Below, piece after piece: positions 10,080 through 41,906 of a stretch of 64,000 nucleotides of DNA. Position numbers and translations under genes: made by a program. This DNA is from Thermocrinis jamiesonii (lineage in GTDB: Bacteria; Aquificota; Aquificia; Aquificales; Aquificaceae): assembly GCF_000702425.1 (NCBI RefSeq), contig NZ_JNIE01000007.1, forward strand, positions 1-64,000, in the 5' to 3' direction. The notes below the pieces were generated by a model. The model was not told the DNA's origin and made no database searches. It worked only from the letters and a program-made list of their open reading frames with translations. The stretch's first letter is position 1; each line of letters opens with the position of its first letter.

Positions 10080-10523
10080 TTAGTGTCCGTGCTTGTGCAT
10101 ACTATGTTCCATTTTCCCCATGCCTTTTTTTACCGGAGCTTGAACTTTTATCTCACCAGATTTTTCAAATTTTAAGGTGATCTCTACAGTTTGTCCTTCT
10201 TTGAGAGGTTCCTTTAGGTCTATTATCATTACATGCAAACCACCGGGCTTTAGTTCAACTGTTTTCCCTGCCGGCACCTCTATTGCATCAACTCTGCGCA
10301 TCTTTCCGCCTACCGTTTCGTGCAATTCTGTTATCCTGGATACGTTGTTGGAGGCATCCACGAGCCTGTCTGCTTCTGTGCCTTTGTTTTCAATCTTCAT
10401 ATAGGCTGCGGTATTTTTAGCATTTGGAGGCACAAGCCTTACCCATGGGTCCTTGATTTCAATCTTTGGTTGGGCTAAAGCAAAACCTAAGGCAGATAAC
10501 CCTAAAATTAAAGCCTTTACCAT
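10080..10523 (-). CDS. PCu(A)C-type periplasmic copper chaperone
   Basis: This 147-residue exported protein starts MVKALILGLSALGFALA, a signal peptide cut after ALA. The mature part has the cupredoxin-like PCu(A)C domain with the Cu(I) ligand pattern H(M)x10Mx21HxM: H in ELHETVGGKM, M in KMRRVDAI and H/M in GGLHVMII. The tail KKGMGKMEHSMHKHGH adds extra Met/His ligands. The family delivers copper to the CuA or CuB site of cytochrome oxidases. It has its own promoter and an AGGAGG ribosome site. Confidence 0.93.
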   Translation of the reverse strand: MVKALILGLSALGFALAQPKIEIKDPWVRLVPPNAKNTAAYMKIENKGTEADRLVDASNNVSRITELHETVGGKMRRVDAIEVPAGKTVELKPGGLHVMIIDLKEPLKEGQTVEITLKFEKSGEIKVQAPVKKGMGKMEHSMHKHGH

Positions 10524-26443: not shown

Positions 26444-27210
26444 GTCCAAAGGATGCGATTATCTTAGGCTTTGTTGAAGGATTGACAGAATTTTTGCCAG
26501 TATCTTCCACTGGCCATCTTATACTCACAGCCCATATATTAGGCTTAACTCACAATGAATTTACCAAAAGCTTTGAGATTTCTATCCAGCTTGGTGCCAT
26601 ACTGGCGGTTTTTTCCCTTTACCTAAAAAGATTCTTAACAGACTTTGAAACATGGAAGAGAATAATATTGGCTTTCCTTCCTACTGGCATACTTGGCTTT
26701 ATCCTTTATAGGTTCATCAAAGGCTACTTGATCGGAAATGATTTGGTGGTAGTAGTTAGCCTTCTCTTAGGTGGCGTTTTTTTGATTTTTGCGGACAGGT
26801 GGTGTGAAAGATTTTGCCATATAGATCAAGTTCAAAAGTTAGCCCTTAGCAAAGCTTTTGTGATTGGTCTTTTTCAGTCTTTGGCTATGGTGCCGGGCGT
26901 ATCCCGAAGCGGAGCAACAATAATAGGCGGTATGCTTATGGGACTAAACAGAAAACAAGCAGCAGAATTTTCCTTTTTGCTGGCAGTGCCCACCATGCTA
27001 TCCGCCACAGGCTATGACCTTTACAAGTCCTACTCTCAGTTTAGCTTTCAGGAGTTTCATCTTTTGGCAATAGGCTTTGCAGTTTCCTTCTTAACAGCCA
27101 TCCTATCAGTAAAGCTTTTCCTAAGATTTGTATCTTCATACAGTTTTCTACCCTTTGGTATCTACAGAATGTTAGTTAGTCTCTTGTATTCATACTTCTT
27201 CTTGTTTTAG
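26440..27210 (+). CDS. uppP: Undecaprenyl-diphosphatase UppP/BacA
   Basis: This 256-residue polytopic protein dephosphorylates undecaprenyl diphosphate, recycling the lipid carrier for peptidoglycan and O-antigen. Both catalytic motifs are intact: EGLTEFLPVSSTGHL near residue 14 and VPGVSRSGATIIGG near 155. It belongs with uppS at 61529. The last 21 bp overlap the convergent gene at 27190. Confidence 0.95.
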   Translation: MSPKDAIILGFVEGLTEFLPVSSTGHLILTAHILGLTHNEFTKSFEISIQLGAILAVFSLYLKRFLTDFETWKRIILAFLPTGILGFILYRFIKGYLIGNDLVVVVSLLLGGVFLIFADRWCERFCHIDQVQKLALSKAFVIGLFQSLAMVPGVSRSGATIIGGMLMGLNRKQAAEFSFLLAVPTMLSATGYDLYKSYSQFSFQEFHLLAIGFAVSFLTAILSVKLFLRFVSSYSFLPFGIYRMLVSLLYSYFFLF

Positions 27211-27711
27211 CTGGATCCATCGTCCGTTGGTTTTAGAATAATAACACTCTGGTTTGCCGATGTTTAGTTTTTTGAACTTTTTGTATTCTTCAATATTTTT
27301 TAAAAATTCCTTCATGTGTTCTTCCGAATCAAAGAAAAGATATTGATCTGCACACTTTAACACGACGTAATCTTTGTTTTCCCTTATTACTGCCGAACAC
27401 AAGGCACAACGCGTATTTTCCGAAGGCTTAGGTGGTGGAGCGTTCTTTTTGTCTTTGTAAGCCCAATAGAGCATTGCTAAAATAGAACCAATGGCAAAAA
27501 ACTCATACACCACAGCGTGGAAAAAAGACAGCACTCCCAACAAAAAGCTCAACGCGGTGGTAAATATCCCACCTACTGTAAGAATGGCGGTTATGAATAT
27601 ATACCTTACTCTTGCACCCAAGAATATTAAAGCTATTATGGAAGCTATGCCAATGGCTCTAAGAAGACCTACGAGGATTATAAGAATGTGTGCAAGCTCA
27701 TGCATTTCCAT
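27190..27711 (-). CDS. Membrane protein with TRASH-like cysteine domain
   Basis: This 173-residue protein has three N-terminal membrane helices (roughly residues 5-90) followed by a soluble domain with CALCSAVIRE, then KCADQYLFFDSEEHMKEFL. The spacing of Cys residues before an aromatic F and an amphipathic helix recalls TRASH/YHS-type metal-binding domains, so I infer a metal-sensing or metal-handling role. I do not recognise the full protein. It lies directly downstream of tRNA-Lys. Confidence 0.55.
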   Translation of the reverse strand: MEMHELAHILIILVGLLRAIGIASIIALIFLGARVRYIFITAILTVGGIFTTALSFLLGVLSFFHAVVYEFFAIGSILAMLYWAYKDKKNAPPPKPSENTRCALCSAVIRENKDYVVLKCADQYLFFDSEEHMKEFLKNIEEYKKFKKLNIGKPECYYSKTNGRWIQLKQEEV

Positions 27712-34258: not shown

Positions 34259-34489
34259 ATGTACTATGTGGCAGAAGTGATAAACGAGGAGTGTTCCAAG
34301 TATAACTGTAAGCAATGCACTCTTTTCTGCCCGGAGCCAAACACACTGATGTATTCGGATGAAGAACACCACGCTTACGTAATTTCTGAAAGGTGTAAAG
34401 GTTGTGGCCTTTGTGTTTATGTTTGCAGTAACCTTTTAAAGCGTAATGCTATTCGTATGGTAATGCCAGAGGTCCATGCGAGAAAATAA
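34259..34489 (+). CDS. porD: PorD-type ferredoxin subunit of a 2-oxoacid:ferredoxin oxidoreductase
   Basis: This 76-residue 2[4Fe-4S] ferredoxin-like protein has cluster motifs CSKYNCKQCTLFCPEP and CKGCGLCVYVC. The sequence matches the delta subunit of pyruvate or 2-oxoglutarate:ferredoxin oxidoreductases of Aquificales, carrying electrons between ferredoxin and the TPP-binding catalytic core. The epsilon-type subunit follows after 16 bp, but the alpha, beta and gamma genes are not here, so whether the complex acts on pyruvate or 2-oxoglutarate is open. Confidence 0.8.
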   Translation: MYYVAEVINEECSKYNCKQCTLFCPEPNTLMYSDEEHHAYVISERCKGCGLCVYVCSNLLKRNAIRMVMPEVHARK

Positions 34490-34505
34490 ATTAAGGAGGT
34501 AAATT

Positions 34506-35075
34506 ATGGCGCTTTTAGGTCCGTCAGGTTATTCACCCTACCCAGTTGCGGTTTATGAAGGGCTCTTAAACCCGCCACCAGGAAAGGCTCTTATGTTTAA
34601 CGAAATAGTGGATGAAGAGATAGCTATGAGGGAAGCAGCAAAAGCTATGCTAACACTTCCTAACGCAACTATATTCCCAGGTCCCCAAGTGCTTTACGCT
34701 TGGAACGAAGAAGCAAAGGAAAAGGCAAAGCTCGTCAGAAAGATGGCTGAAGTTTTGAACGCAAGGATAATACCCATGTATGACTATAGACCAAAATATC
34801 CAAAGATAAATCCTGAGGTTGAAATAAACCCAAACCATCCAAACCTTACCATATGGCACAACAAGATAAAGGCCTGCATATTCGTTGGGGTTCATTGTCA
34901 CTACGCCAACGTAGCCCTAAAGATCATAAGGGCTGAGACGGATTGCTTTACCATAGCTATGTGTGGTATGGCTGGACACGAGGATGCTATGATAACCCTC
35001 AGGGATCAGCAAATAGAGGAGATGGAAAAGTTCATAAAAATAGCCGAGGAAGTTAAAAGAGAATTAGGAAAGTGA
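34506..35075 (+). CDS. porE: PorE/ForE-type fifth subunit of a 2-oxoacid:ferredoxin oxidoreductase
   Basis: This 189-residue protein resembles the extra (epsilon) subunit found with the five-subunit oxidoreductases of Hydrogenobacter, which databases liken to the CO dehydrogenase/acetyl-CoA synthase epsilon-type fold. Visible features: MALLGPSGYSPYPVAVYEG, an interior KACIFVGVHCHYANVALKII strand and TIAMCGMAGHEDAMITL. It contains no Fe-S motif. The ATG follows AAGGAGG. Its function in the complex is unproven, perhaps assembly or partner docking. Confidence 0.72.
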   Translation: MALLGPSGYSPYPVAVYEGLLNPPPGKALMFNEIVDEEIAMREAAKAMLTLPNATIFPGPQVLYAWNEEAKEKAKLVRKMAEVLNARIIPMYDYRPKYPKINPEVEINPNHPNLTIWHNKIKACIFVGVHCHYANVALKIIRAETDCFTIAMCGMAGHEDAMITLRDQQIEEMEKFIKIAEEVKRELGK

Positions 35076-35151
35076 ATAGAAACATTTGAAAAGTTAAGCG
35101 CCTTAAAAAAATACCACCAAAATTTAAGTAATGCTAAAGCGGTCAAAGGAC

Positions 35152-35180
35152 TTGAACTATTTTCAGAAAAAATGTTAAAT
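35152..35180 (+). promoter_or_regulatory. Candidate promoter of the HTH-NosL gene
   Basis: TTGAAC (35152-35157), a 17-nt spacer and TTAAAT (35175-35180) end 13 nt before the ATG at 35194. There is no Shine-Dalgarno in the gap. Confidence 0.5.
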
Positions 35181-35193
35181 TTTTAATGCAAAA

Positions 35194-35766
35194 ATGAACA
35201 GGAAAGAGCAGATCTTAAACCTCATAGCCAAGGGCTACACCACTGTAAAATCCTTAGCGGAATATTTTAATGTCTCTTTAATGACCATATACAGAGATGT
35301 TAGGGAGTTGGAAAAGGAGGGAAAGATAATCAGAAGACATGGAGAACTCCTTTTAAAATCTGAGGAAGAGCAATCTCAGGAAACTGGAGCATGCGCTTAT
35401 TGTGGAAAGATCTTGGATAGACGTTTGGAATTTGTGTATAGACTTAAAAGTAAAGCTGTTTGTGCTTGTTGTGCCCACTGTGGGCTGTTGCTTTATAATG
35501 ACGTTCAGGATAAAGAGATTCAATCTTGTATGACACGGGATTTTATATCGGGAAACCCTATCAATTGCTTTTCCGCTTGGTATGTGGTAGGATCCTCCGC
35601 CAAGCCTTGTTGCATTCCCTCCGTTATAGCTTTTGCCGATAAAGAGGATGCAGAAAAATTCGCCAAAGGGTTTGGCGGAAAGGTTTTTGATTTTGAAACC
35701 GCTCTCCGTGCTGTAGAAGAGCTTATGAAAAGAGGACATCAAGTAGTTTGGGAGCAGATGTTATAG
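35194..35766 (+). CDS. DeoR-type HTH fused to a NosL-like metal-binding domain
   Basis: Residues 1-55 of this 190-residue protein form a DeoR-type winged helix (KEQILNLIAKGYTTVKSLAE, SLMTIYRDVRELEKEGKII). Residues 65-180 resemble the copper lipoprotein NosL but without a signal peptide: CAYCGKILDRRLEFV, CACCAHCGLLLY, MTRDFISGNPINCFSAWYVV, then AFADKEDAEKFAKGFGGKV. I infer a cytoplasmic sensor that binds copper or another thiophilic metal through its cysteines. It lies 24 bp before nuoG on the same strand, so it may regulate that transcript. Confidence 0.75.
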   Translation: MNRKEQILNLIAKGYTTVKSLAEYFNVSLMTIYRDVRELEKEGKIIRRHGELLLKSEEEQSQETGACAYCGKILDRRLEFVYRLKSKAVCACCAHCGLLLYNDVQDKEIQSCMTRDFISGNPINCFSAWYVVGSSAKPCCIPSVIAFADKEDAEKFAKGFGGKVFDFETALRAVEELMKRGHQVVWEQML

Positions 35767-35790: not shown

Positions 35791-37686
35791 ATGACATCCA
35801 TAGTTAGCATAACTGTAGATGGAAAGAAGATAGAAGCTGAAAAGGGTAAGCCCCTTCTTCAAGCTTTGCTGGACGCAGGCATTCAAGTTCCCTACTTTTG
35901 CTACCATCCAAAGCTAAGGATAATAGGTGCCTGTAGGATGTGCATAGTTTATAACGAAAAAACTGGAAGGCTTATTACTTCTTGTAATACGCCCGTAGAA
36001 GAGGATATGGTAATATCCACCAAGCATCCTTTGGTGGTAGAAAACCAAAAGTATTTACTACAAGCCTTCATGACAAGACATCCCTTAGACTGTCCAATAT
36101 GCGACAAGGCTGGAGAATGCGACCTTCAGAACTACGGAGCTCTGTTTGGACCACAAAAGCAGATTGTGCCTGTCTCTGCCCTTGAAAAAGAAAGGCATCA
36201 ACTGGACTGGGAGAGTGATTTTCTGGAGTATTACTCAAACAGGTGCGTGGTTTGTTATAGATGCACCAGAGCGTGCGATGAGGTAGTTTCTGCAAAAGCC
36301 CTTTATGTGGAAGAGAGAGGTTTTCAGGCAAACATAGCGCCAGCGGTAAGACCTATGGACACATCTACCTGTGAGATGTGTGGGCTATGCGTCTATGTTT
36401 GTCCTGTGGGTGCCATTATCTCAAAGCCTTTTAAGTATTGGACAAGAAGCTGGCTACTCAAAAAGGGTCTAACCGCATGTAATCTTTGTTCGGTCGGCTG
36501 TCAGATCCAAGTGGAATATGGTGTGGGAGATTGGATGTCAGCAGAAAAGGTTTATAGAACAAAGCCAACAGATAGTTTAGATATATGTGCAAAGGCTTTC
36601 TTTGGATATGACGCCCTCAACCAAAACCGTCTGAAAAGTCCAGAACTCTTTGGAAAAGAAGAGTCTTATGGAAACATATCCCAGCTTATAAGCACCTATC
36701 TTAGAACAAATCAAGGAAAAACCGCAATAATTCTGTCCTCTTACCTAAGCAACGAAAGTCTTTTGGCTATCAAAGAAATAGCCCAAAGGTGCGGTGCGAT
36801 CGTAACATCAACCTTAAGCGTAAATCTCTATCCTTTCTTAGAATCCTACGGAACTTACGAACCCTTTGAGTGGGAAAAGATAAAAGAATACGATCAATTC
36901 CTTTTGATAGGAGAGGACCTAACATCCACTGCTACTGTGCTGTCTTACTACATAAAGGGCAAAGTTTATAAGATAGGCAAGGTAGAGAGGGATGTAAAGT
37001 TGAGACCAAAGGAGATTAGTTTGGATGATCTTAGCTCTTTGGAAGGTAGGGGCTTAGTGGTGGTAAATCTGGAAGGGCTTGTGGGGAACGAGGCAAGGCT
37101 TTGGGGTGAGAGGATAAGAAAGTTCAAAGAAGAAAAAGGCTGGGATGTGATGCTGGTGTGTAAGGAGGCAAATTTCTTAGGTGTTCTAAAGACTTTTTCC
37201 TCCGAAGAGATGTCCCCTATGGATCTGGTGATCGAAGAGGTAGAAAGAGGGAATATAACAAACCTTTTCATCTTTGGAGAGGACGTTTTGGACTTTTATC
37301 CCTTGGAAAGGATAGCAGGTCTTAAAGACAAAGTGGAGCACCTTGTGGTCTTTTCTCCTTTCTTTGATGGGCTTGCCTCTTATGCCTCTATTAGGATCCC
37401 GATGTTTCTTATGGGCGAAGAAGAAGGCACCTATCTTAGCCTTATGGGAGAGGTAAAGACTAAAAAGTTCTTGCCTTGGGGTGGAAGTTTAAGCCAATTT
37501 TTGATGAACCTTTCAGAGCTTTTGCCAAAAGAAAAGGTAGGCATAAAGAAATTGGAAGGAAAGACATCCATTGAAAATTCTCTCTTTAAGGCCCATCTTT
37601 ACAAAGGCAGTTGGATAAACACAAGAAGCGAGAACTTGAACAAACTTTATGCTAAGAACATTATAGAGGAGGTGAGCCATGTTTAG
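35791..37686 (+). CDS. nuoG: NADH-quinone oxidoreductase subunit G
   Basis: This 631-residue peripheral-arm subunit of complex I has an N-terminal [2Fe-2S] domain (CYHPKLRIIGACRMC), the His-containing 4Fe site (RHPLDCPICDKAGECDLQ) and two [4Fe-4S] motifs (CVVCYRCTRACDEV, CEMCGLCVYVCPVGA). A shortened molybdopterin-type domain opens with CNLCSVGCQI and carries the extra N7-type cluster. I choose the ATG at 35791, which follows AAGGAGG, over an upstream in-frame start. It is far from nuoA/B/CD/H. nuoE, nuoF and nuoI-N are not in the window. Confidence 0.93.
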   Translation: MTSIVSITVDGKKIEAEKGKPLLQALLDAGIQVPYFCYHPKLRIIGACRMCIVYNEKTGRLITSCNTPVEEDMVISTKHPLVVENQKYLLQAFMTRHPLDCPICDKAGECDLQNYGALFGPQKQIVPVSALEKERHQLDWESDFLEYYSNRCVVCYRCTRACDEVVSAKALYVEERGFQANIAPAVRPMDTSTCEMCGLCVYVCPVGAIISKPFKYWTRSWLLKKGLTACNLCSVGCQIQVEYGVGDWMSAEKVYRTKPTDSLDICAKAFFGYDALNQNRLKSPELFGKEESYGNISQLISTYLRTNQGKTAIILSSYLSNESLLAIKEIAQRCGAIVTSTLSVNLYPFLESYGTYEPFEWEKIKEYDQFLLIGEDLTSTATVLSYYIKGKVYKIGKVERDVKLRPKEISLDDLSSLEGRGLVVVNLEGLVGNEARLWGERIRKFKEEKGWDVMLVCKEANFLGVLKTFSSEEMSPMDLVIEEVERGNITNLFIFGEDVLDFYPLERIAGLKDKVEHLVVFSPFFDGLASYASIRIPMFLMGEEEGTYLSLMGEVKTKKFLPWGGSLSQFLMNLSELLPKEKVGIKKLEGKTSIENSLFKAHLYKGSWINTRSENLNKLYAKNIIEEVSHV

Positions 37687-39724: not shown

Positions 39725-40321
39725 CTATTTTACCAAAAGTCTCTTCAAAACTTCCTCTTCTTGAGGATAGGGAATGCCGAAACTCTTCATCTTCTTTATG
39801 CACTCCAAAGCGGATGGAATATCCCCCTTTCTTTCAAAAAGATACACCAAAAGCTCAAAGGAATATATCTGGGGGATCTGCCCGTTGTTTCTCTTTCTCA
39901 ATTCTTCCACATACTCTGGAAAGAGTTCCACGTCCCTTTTGGCAACTTGCTCCATCTTCTCAAAATCCCTCCGTTTTTGGTAAAGAAGCAAAAGGTCGTT
40001 TAGGATAAGATGCTCTTCGTAGGCGGTGCCTTCTTGATTCAGTGCCTGAAGATACAACCATTCTGCAGTCTCAAAATCCCTCTCTAAAAGCGCAGTCTGA
40101 GCCAAGCTACCCAAGAAAGTCCTCTTTGTATAAGCTGTCTGCACCTCTCCACTGTCAAAGTCCCTTGCCCTGTATGGGAAATTTAGACTTTTTATCGTCT
40201 TGAGAGAAAAGTAATACTTTACTTTTTTTTGCCACTTTGGTTCCAAAGACTCATACCAATCCCAAAGGTTCAAAGCCTTCAAAATTCCACCCCTTTCTCT
40301 GAAAAAACGGAAAAACTTCAT
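39725..40321 (-). CDS. TPR-like hypothetical protein, last gene of hemerythrin operon
   Basis: I do not recognise this 198-residue protein. The middle and C-terminal parts look like TPR/helical repeats (LAQTALLERDFETAEWLYLQ, LLLYQKRRDFEKMEQVAKRD, ELLVYLFERKGDIPSALECI). There is no signal or membrane segment. Its ATG overlaps the TGA of the upstream membrane protein gene (ATGA), so it is translationally coupled to that gene and probably interacts with the same system. Confidence 0.65.
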   Translation of the reverse strand: MKFFRFFRERGGILKALNLWDWYESLEPKWQKKVKYYFSLKTIKSLNFPYRARDFDSGEVQTAYTKRTFLGSLAQTALLERDFETAEWLYLQALNQEGTAYEEHLILNDLLLLYQKRRDFEKMEQVAKRDVELFPEYVEELRKRNNGQIPQIYSFELLVYLFERKGDIPSALECIKKMKSFGIPYPQEEEVLKRLLVK

Positions 40322-41481
40322 CTATTCTTAAGATATATCTTTACTCCGCCTACTATATTAAAAAACAGCACACTGGCAGTTAAAAGGTGGAAAAAGATGG
40401 GAATAAACAAAAGGTCCTTTGAAAGAAAGCCTAAGGGAAGGGAAAGGCACAAAGCTAAAAAGCTGTAAAAGGTTAGTCCTTGCCTAAGGGGTGGAAGTAT
40501 CTCAAACATCAAAGGCGCACTTTTTATACCAAAACCGCTCAGATGAAACCACACCAAGAAAGGAATAATTCTCTGCATCATGCCAACTATTATTGCACTG
40601 AAGAACAAGCCAAAGACAAGCAAAAAGGGAATAAATTTGCCTATCAGAAAGAGAGCGCAAGCCGACAGCAGAAGGATCATACCCAAAAGCCAAAATCTTG
40701 GAGTATATTCCAAAACTTTTCTCTTGCTTTTCAGAAGTAAATAAATCGTTGTTAAAGCGTAGAAGGTGTAAAGAAGAAAAATGGGAAGTCTATATATACT
40801 CCCCTCCCCAAGCTGGAACACAAGTAAAGATAAGAGCAAGAGAGGGTGAAAATACCAAGCTAAGTATTTTGGATAAGGTGGAGTTGTGTAGAAGGTTTCT
40901 ATTACCTGAAAAGAAACGCTAACGATCAAACCGCCTACCCACCCCCAAAGCATAAAGGAATGGTGAAGTTTAAAAAGTGCAGGTTCTCCAAGAAGAAGAA
41001 ATAAGTATCCAAAGAGAGCTCCTGCAAGAAGAAAGCTTAGACTAAACTTAAATCCCCTAACCGCAGGTAAAAAGCTCTTTTTTGGCAAAAGATGATACAT
41101 CATCAAGGATGAAATAAACAGAATACTTATAAGTAAGGCTGTCGCTCCGAAGTTTAAAATGTTTCTGTCTCCCTTTGAAAAACCAACCAAGAATACGAAA
41201 ACAGAAAAAAGCAAAAGTAGGTAAGAAGGGAGAGCCTTTTTTAGTGGTTCCTTTATAACCGCCCCAGCAACCACAGGAAGCATTTGAAATAGTGCGCCAA
41301 ACATCGTAATCAGAGCAAAACCAAGAAGGTGAGTATGGACCAAAAGGGGAAGGTTGAGCTCTTTTTTGAGAAAAAGATAAAGCTCAAGGAAGGATGAAAT
41401 TAGCCAAAAGATGCAAGCAGTTAGGAAATGAAGGGCAACTATTACAAAAGGTGGTGCCTGATGAACGGACAGCCCTCTCAT
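40318..41481 (-). CDS. Polytopic membrane protein resembling heme-copper oxidase subunit I / NnrS
   Basis: This protein is 387 residues with about 12 hydrophobic helices, starting at the ATG that overlaps the hemerythrin stop (ATGA); the reading frame open from 41532 would lie inside that gene. Conserved-looking histidines are in LLVHTHLLGFALITMFGALF and KLHHSFMLWGW, reminiscent of the haem-binding helices of the CcoN/NnrS superfamily. That placement is from motif style only. Its linkage to a hemerythrin suggests a role with oxygen, nitric oxide or haem. Confidence 0.6.
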   Translation of the reverse strand: MRGLSVHQAPPFVIVALHFLTACIFWLISSFLELYLFLKKELNLPLLVHTHLLGFALITMFGALFQMLPVVAGAVIKEPLKKALPSYLLLLFSVFVFLVGFSKGDRNILNFGATALLISILFISSLMMYHLLPKKSFLPAVRGFKFSLSFLLAGALFGYLFLLLGEPALFKLHHSFMLWGWVGGLIVSVSFQVIETFYTTPPYPKYLAWYFHPLLLLSLLVFQLGEGSIYRLPIFLLYTFYALTTIYLLLKSKRKVLEYTPRFWLLGMILLLSACALFLIGKFIPFLLVFGLFFSAIIVGMMQRIIPFLVWFHLSGFGIKSAPLMFEILPPLRQGLTFYSFLALCLSLPLGFLSKDLLFIPIFFHLLTASVLFFNIVGGVKIYLKNR

Positions 41482-41906
41482 ACACTTTCCATCTTCTGGA
41501 TCATTTCCGATGGATCCAAATGTTGGTCGCACATAGGATAGAGTATTTGCTCTTCCTTTAAGTTATGCTGTTGGATCAGGATCATAAAAGTGTCTCCTAC
41601 AGATAAAAACTCCTCTCTGTTTCTGTTTTTTAAAGCTCTTTCCATTCTTTCAATAAGCTCCCTTGCCTGGGCATGTTCCATACGCATTACCTGAGTTGGA
41701 CCCATCACTATGCCTGTTCTACCCTCAAACTCTGGAAAGAGCACTGCCTCTTCCCTTTCAAAGTGTTTCAGCGTTTCACTTTTGAACTCTTCGAAGGCTT
41801 TCTCTCCTTCTTCCCATTTTCCTTCCCTTATTAGCCTTTCCACTTCCGCATAGATGCTATCGCACTCCCTGTGCTCTTCCGTTAAGTATTCGGCTATGCT
41901 CAGCAT
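41478..41906 (-). CDS. Hemerythrin-domain (HHE) protein
   Basis: This 142-residue four-helix protein has likely di-iron ligands H12 (TEEHRECD), H48/E52 (KHFEREEAVLFPEFE), H79 (MRMEHAQARE) and H/E in QQHNLKEEQILYPMCD. Hemerythrins bind oxygen or, in the RIC/YtfE type, serve iron-sulfur repair after nitrosative stress. It is the first gene of a three-gene unit joined by ATGA overlaps. Confidence 0.88.
   Translation of the reverse strand: MLSIAEYLTEEHRECDSIYAEVERLIREGKWEEGEKAFEEFKSETLKHFEREEAVLFPEFEGRTGIVMGPTQVMRMEHAQARELIERMERALKNRNREEFLSVGDTFMILIQQHNLKEEQILYPMCDQHLDPSEMIQKMESV

Follow-up and report, generated by a model that had tools for sequence, protein, structure and literature searches.

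A YcnK-family regulator of Thermocrinis jamiesonii as a candidate copper sensor of the Aquificales

We analyzed a stretch of 64,000 nucleotides from Thermocrinis jamiesonii (referred to as the window), in which the gene at 35194..35766 (forward strand) very probably encodes a cytosolic copper-responsive regulator of the YcnK family. In this protein, Cu(I) bound to a thiolate-rich site in a NosL fold would alter the binding of a helix-turn-helix (HTH) domain to TGTTA palindromes, and the regulator is most likely a repressor. The idea of a cytoplasmic copper or other soft-metal sensor, put forward in the preliminary description of this gene, is well supported by homology, by the fold, by invariant cysteine and histidine residues and by the linkage of Bacilli homologues to copper genes.

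Domain architecture, fold and family of the regulator

The coding sequence begins with an ATG at 35194, ends with the stop codon at 35766 and specifies 190 amino acids. A Pfam search assigned residues 3-52 (35200..35349, forward strand) to the DeoR-type winged HTH (HTH_DeoR; E 2.2e-12, 46.9 bits, cut-off 21) and residues 119-168 (35548..35697, forward strand) to NosL (E 7.6e-9, 36.4 bits, cut-off 24). Both matches lie above the curated cut-offs, which bears out the earlier reading of a DeoR-type HTH joined to a NosL domain. A profile comparison with NosL and TRASH had been suggested at that stage; the NosL match is significant and spans only model positions 75-124 of 131, i.e., the second half of the family, and the archaeal TRASH family (PF08394) matched residues 67-96 weakly and below its cut-off (E 0.026, 15 bits, cut-off 27). 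No DeoRC effector domain was matched by Pfam, and the NCBIfam matches covered the HTH alone, far below cut-off. Ten cysteines are present (positions 67, 70, 90, 92, 93, 96, 112, 125, 139, and 140), and since the protein begins with the HTH, there is no N-terminal signal peptide or lipobox, in agreement with the previous account of a signal-less NosL-like domain with at least eight cysteines.

The AlphaFold2 model of the regulator (pLDDT 92.3) contains an HTH part with helices at residues 3-12, 18-25, and 29-41 and a hairpin of strands 45-48 and 51-54, followed by two beta-beta-alpha-beta units. The first, TRASH-like half of the NosL fold (residues 65-115; 35386..35538, forward strand) has strands at 80-84, 88-91, and 109-115 and a helix at 94-104, and it carries the candidate ligands C67, C70, C92, C93, H95, and C96. 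The second half, which coincides with the Pfam NosL match, has strands at 129-132, 144-147, and 163-165 and a helix at 150-160, with the candidate ligands C139 and C140. The best-ranked entries of a Foldseek search against the PDB were NosL (7og7, E 1.3e-6), then NosL in NosDFYL and then MerB, with E values from 1.3e-6 to 3.4e-5 for the NosL crystal and cryo-EM chains. In accordance, three NosL chains ranked first in a phmmer search of the PDB sequences (E 1.7e-5 to 4.4e-5). The NosL/MerB fold, consisting of two TRASH-like treble clefs, is a known one (PMC4999995). No solved YcnK structure was found by either the sequence or the fold search.

In Bacillus subtilis, YcnK is a copper-dependent repressor whose HTH binds upstream of ycnKJI (PMC8424229; PMC12154828, PMC13344008; these articles cite Chillappagari 2009 and Hirooka 2012 for YcnK). 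The combination of a DeoR-type HTH and NosL, previously regarded as a new architecture, is thus that of a published repressor. When 400 Bacilli genomes were searched with the window protein, 36 of them gave matches at E 1e-10 or better, nearly all spanning both domains, with 30-39% identity; the B. subtilis control genome was positive for NosL. We inspected 20 Bacilli loci, 19 of which contained the regulator open reading frame. CopC or CopC-CopD adjoins 7 of these 19 genomic homologues, and several adjoin CopC-CopD (YcnJ-like), DUF1775 (YcnI-like), Sco, or YtkA. In one Bacilli genome (locus L157), the regulator, a CopC-CopD fusion (552 amino acids) and DUF1775 follow each other in the order ycnK-ycnJ-ycnI, and BLASTP aligns this regulator and the window protein along their whole length (29% identity, E 3e-31). 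It is on this gene order that the identification of the family as that of YcnK is based. We take the C-terminal domain of YcnK to be NosL-like. The likeness of the window protein to YcnK comprises the domain order, the length of about 190 amino acids and the cysteine/histidine set of the Bacilli homologues matched by gene order. A further homologue was observed between CopC/CopD and a cupredoxin-domain protein on plasmid CP031730 (L105), which is labelled Stenotrophomonas; it lies in a metal island, low GC content and Bacilli-type relatives give the homologue and its flanks a Bacillus-like appearance, and the record is possibly mislabelled or contaminating.

Conserved residues of the sensor domain

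Among 65 distinct orthologues, C67, C70, C92, C93, H95, C96, C139, D116, and F117 are invariant, as is C140 except in one truncated copy, whereas C90, C112, and C125 vary. Because these 65 sequences preserve the motifs, the open reading frame is not a chance one. It is hard to credit, for the same reason, that the protein is a degenerate or inactive fusion or resembles NosL by chance. That reading could draw on the restriction of the Pfam match to the second half of NosL and on two defective copies, one broken by a stop after residue 140 (L013, genome G006) and one split (G020:C38:13036-13591), each of which is either a pseudogene or an assembly error; it is contradicted by the invariance of the cysteine and histidine residues, the fold-level NosL match and the near-universal conservation of the gene.

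When 24 Aquificales and 16 Bacilli proteins were aligned together (40 sequences), C67, C70, C92, C93, H95, C96, D116, C139, and C140 proved invariant across the two phyla, and the window protein was 27-36% identical to the Bacilli sequences. HTH_DeoR was detected by Pfam in all 40 of these homologues and NosL in 39. This shared cysteine/histidine set is the strongest evidence that the regulator senses what YcnK senses. In the tree of the joint alignment, a fully supported split sets the Bacilli sequences apart from those of the Aquificales, whose families f1 and f3 form separate groups; this topology is consistent with an old divergence.

The sensor domain differs from NosL itself, the exported Cu(I) lipoprotein chaperone (PF05573), which has a signal and a lipobox, in that the fused HTH and the additional cysteine/histidine set belong to the regulator. 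The two have in common the duplicated beta-beta-alpha-beta fold, the DF motif and the C-terminal GG-V-F motif. NosL binds Cu(I) through its CXM motif, perhaps with the help of another conserved methionine (PMC6530538). Exported NosL copies of the relatives read CAYCRM ... DSVEC ... PDF ... SPMG, and the regulator has CAYCGK ... CCAHC ... DF ... PCC-PS at the corresponding places. C70 thus corresponds to the retained cysteine of the CXM motif, which is absent as such (C70-G-K72), with lysine or arginine in place of the methionine in nearly the whole family; in a by-eye alignment, the second conserved methionine is replaced by C140. C67, C92, C93, H95, C96, and C139 join these two cysteines as candidate ligands, and a thiolate-rich cytosolic Cu(I) site is the natural reading. 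Two exported stand-alone NosL-like proteins were noticed in gammaproteobacterial genomes (L161, 1417-1875; L162, 1426-1857) that carry the motifs of the regulator type (CGxCGK, CAGCG, DF, ACC-PS), not the classical CXM/SPMG of NosL, and share 40-41% identity with the sensor domain; they may represent a thiolate-type NosL chaperone.

With the methionine ligands of NosL gone and cysteines prevailing, a YcnK-like regulator might instead sense a different soft metal, for example Hg(II) or Zn(II), or a thiol-reactive signal such as oxidative or sulfide stress. The replacement of the CXM methionine by K72 and of the second methionine by C140, the appearance of MerB in the fold search and the Aquificales gene neighbors, which give no indication of copper, would agree with this alternative. 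We nevertheless consider it improbable, given that the candidate ligand positions are all identical in the Bacilli homologues of copper operons, that the regulator is absent together with copA from family f2, and that copper genes of some genera are preceded by palindromes.

The copper-responsive YcnK-type regulator proposed here also resembles the archaeal copper regulators CopR and CopT, which consist of an HTH and a TRASH domain (PMC7830388), in that an HTH is joined to a cysteine-based copper sensor related to TRASH. However, CopR contains a single TRASH domain (in Thermococcales also a His-rich tail), whereas the regulator has the duplicated NosL fold, and the CopR motif TTNNCAWWWTGNNAA differs from the candidate motif found here. 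The classical DeoR regulators of sugar-phosphate metabolism possess the DeoRC effector domain, which the regulator lacks.

Distribution, gene neighborhoods and copper genes

Orthologues were found in 52 of 61 near-relative genomes, representing 18 of 19 genera, and at the same threshold 98 of the 136 genomes from the phylum gave matches, a few of them solely through proteins of another kind, for example NosL lipoproteins. Almost all members of families f1 and f3 have the gene in a single copy, and it is missing from family f2 and from the genomes outside the order. It is thus old and conserved. Orthologues in sister records named Thermocrinis share 79-80% identity with the window protein, and the members from family f3 mostly have an extra C-terminal CC, which also occurs in some Bacilli. 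The YcnK type occurs in almost every genome of two Aquificales families, compared with about 9% of the Bacilli sampled; the operon linkage to ycnJ and ycnI is absent in the Aquificales and also in part of the Bacilli homologues.

The ATG of a nuoG-like gene (35791..37686, forward strand; the protein is NuoG-like) is located at 35791, 24 nucleotides past the stop codon of the regulator gene, exactly at the distance given before. A local role in the control of nuoG, or of Fe-S or respiratory genes, by a regulator co-transcribed with nuoG would fit this short gap, as well as the presence of nuoG downstream in some other members of the genus and in genome G029. This adjacency is confined to part of the relatives; the neighbors are unrelated in most genera, including a flagellar gene in genera g6, g4, and g9, dnaC-like and hisB genes in family f3 and others elsewhere, and the protein is conserved regardless. 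Such a local role is consequently very unlikely, and nuoG is probably not functionally linked to the regulator.

The gene had also been placed near copper and Fe-S genes. The Fe-S part holds, with a ferredoxin gene at 34259-34489 on one side and nuoG on the other, but the copper part is weak, as the PCu(A)C gene is 24.7 kb away. The proximity of nuoG and PCu(A)C loses its value as evidence, since the former neighborhood is not conserved and the latter gene is this distant. In most of the Aquificales genomes compared, no copper gene is linked to the regulator; three genomes of two genera (G007, G014, and G021) have a short CopD-like gene at a distance of about 3 kb. Because gene order is not conserved, the Aquificales neighborhood was dropped as evidence for a link to copper.

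Several other genes of the window were recorded. In the region just upstream of the regulator (34259-35075, forward strand), the ferredoxin is a small one of the 4Fe-4S type, and the next gene encodes a member of the CO dehydrogenase beta/ACS epsilon family (PF02552). The PCu(A)C copper chaperone gene (10080-10523, reverse strand; PF04314, E 6.8e-40) is preceded by the AT-rich stretch GGTTAAATTTTGTGATAAATTTAAATTAAC; a comparison of its upstream region with that of ycnK revealed an AT-rich GTTAAATTTT stretch as the sole common feature, and it was rejected as evidence. A 173-amino-acid membrane protein with a TRASH/YHS-like C-terminus (CALC...FDSEEHMKEF) and no Pfam match is encoded at 27190-27711 (reverse strand). 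A 404-amino-acid protein with multiple transmembrane segments (40318-41532, reverse strand) is NnrS-like by eye, with no Pfam match at E 0.001, and a hemerythrin-like gene (41478-41906) adjoins it.

Three broader observations do point to copper, two of them from the distribution of copper genes and the third being the palindrome described below. In seven genomes of family f2 (G037, G039, G041, G043, G045, G047, and G049), the regulator, CopA-type ATPases above the cut-off, CopD, and CsoR are all absent together, as if copper handling had been lost. In a search directed at CsoR/FrmR-type repressors, these were detected in 11 of the 61 relatives and in none of the genomes of the genus, including that of T. 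jamiesonii. Copper-ATPase matches at a looser threshold were obtained in all 19 genera; together with the scarcity of CsoR/FrmR, this leads us to expect another copper regulator.

Candidate operator and proposed mechanism

The regulator gene is preceded by an intergenic region of about 115 bp (35079..35193, forward strand) that likely contains its promoter. Within this region, TGTTAAATTTTTAA (35173-35186) is a weak candidate for an operator half-site, not above chance within the window by itself, beside an AT-rich -10-like element that looks similar elsewhere in the genus. The window contains no TGTTANNNTAACA site, even when 1 mismatch is allowed. The palindrome TGTTAA-N1-2-TTAACA, picked by eye and post hoc from related sequences, occurs with at most 2 mismatches in 14 of 44 ycnK upstream regions, compared with 3.2 expected from shuffles; P values computed for the motif are biased by relatedness, AT content and its post hoc selection, and we do not treat them as proof. 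There was no general enrichment of palindromes in the ycnK upstream regions (5.52 matches, compared with 5.48 in shuffles). Some Bacilli ycnK upstream regions contain the same half-sites (TGTTATAAACATAACA, TGTTATATCGTAACA). We put forward this palindrome, as a hypothesis from sequence comparison, as the operator of the regulator.

The T. jamiesonii genome contains six exact palindrome sites, three of which were read, and all readable sites of the genus are at non-copper genes. In a scan of 37 relatives, the palindrome preceded a copper P-type ATPase gene in genus g9 and the Sec-type nosZ in genus g16, and in genus g4 it was situated in the gap that separates a TonB-dependent receptor gene from tonB; it also occurred at unrelated places. 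The g4 receptor matches both the TonB-copper and the TonB-hemin models, below cut-off. TGTTAAATTAACA, with 0-1 mismatch, is present about 100-190 bp before CopB-type ATPases in six genomes of g6 and g9 (L166, L193, L198, L188, L196, and L186), and the CopA promoters of many Aquificaceae have the related element TTGNATTAACA in common. Around position 1500 of L171 and L172, which are the nosZ loci of two genomes of one f3 genus, the perfect palindromes TGTTAAAATTAACA and TGTTAATTTAACA are found directly upstream of the Sec-type nosZ; a copper control of N2O reductase is possible at these sites.

In the mechanism that we propose, the N-terminal DeoR-type winged helix would bind DNA and the C-terminal NosL fold would serve as the sensor, in which the Cys/Met copper site of exported NosL would have given way to a thiolate-rich site made up of C67, C70, C92, C93, H95, C96, C139, and C140. 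Cu(I) would be bound at or between the two lobes and would change the affinity of the HTH for palindromes of TGTTA half-sites; candidate targets are the CopB and CopA ATPases, the TonB-dependent copper receptor, nosZ and the regulator gene itself. We infer that Cu(I) is the physiological ligand in the Aquificales, and we likewise infer the operator, the genes under control and the sign of their response in this order. The ycnKJI operon is upregulated under copper starvation and downregulated under copper excess (PMC12154828), YcnK has been named a Cu-dependent repressor (PMC8424229, PMC13344008), and Cu(I) has been proposed to antagonize it (PMC13344008). If efflux genes are the targets in the Aquificales, the sign of the response may depend on the promoter. 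A further proposal, for which our confidence is low, is that the Aquificales YcnK serves as the principal, order-wide copper regulator in place of CsoR and controls ATPases for copper efflux, copper uptake through TonB-dependent receptors and nitrous-oxide reductase via TGTTAA-N1-2-TTAACA, compared with the single ycnKJI uptake operon in Bacillus.

The YcnK kind of copper sensor extends far beyond the Firmicutes, and a regulator present in a single copy almost throughout a deep-branching thermophilic order gains a testable function. The cysteine/histidine set that is invariant over two phyla indicates which positions of the YcnK metal site mutagenesis should target, and the candidate palindrome defines a testable regulon that may include a direct coupling of N2O reduction to copper status in family f3.
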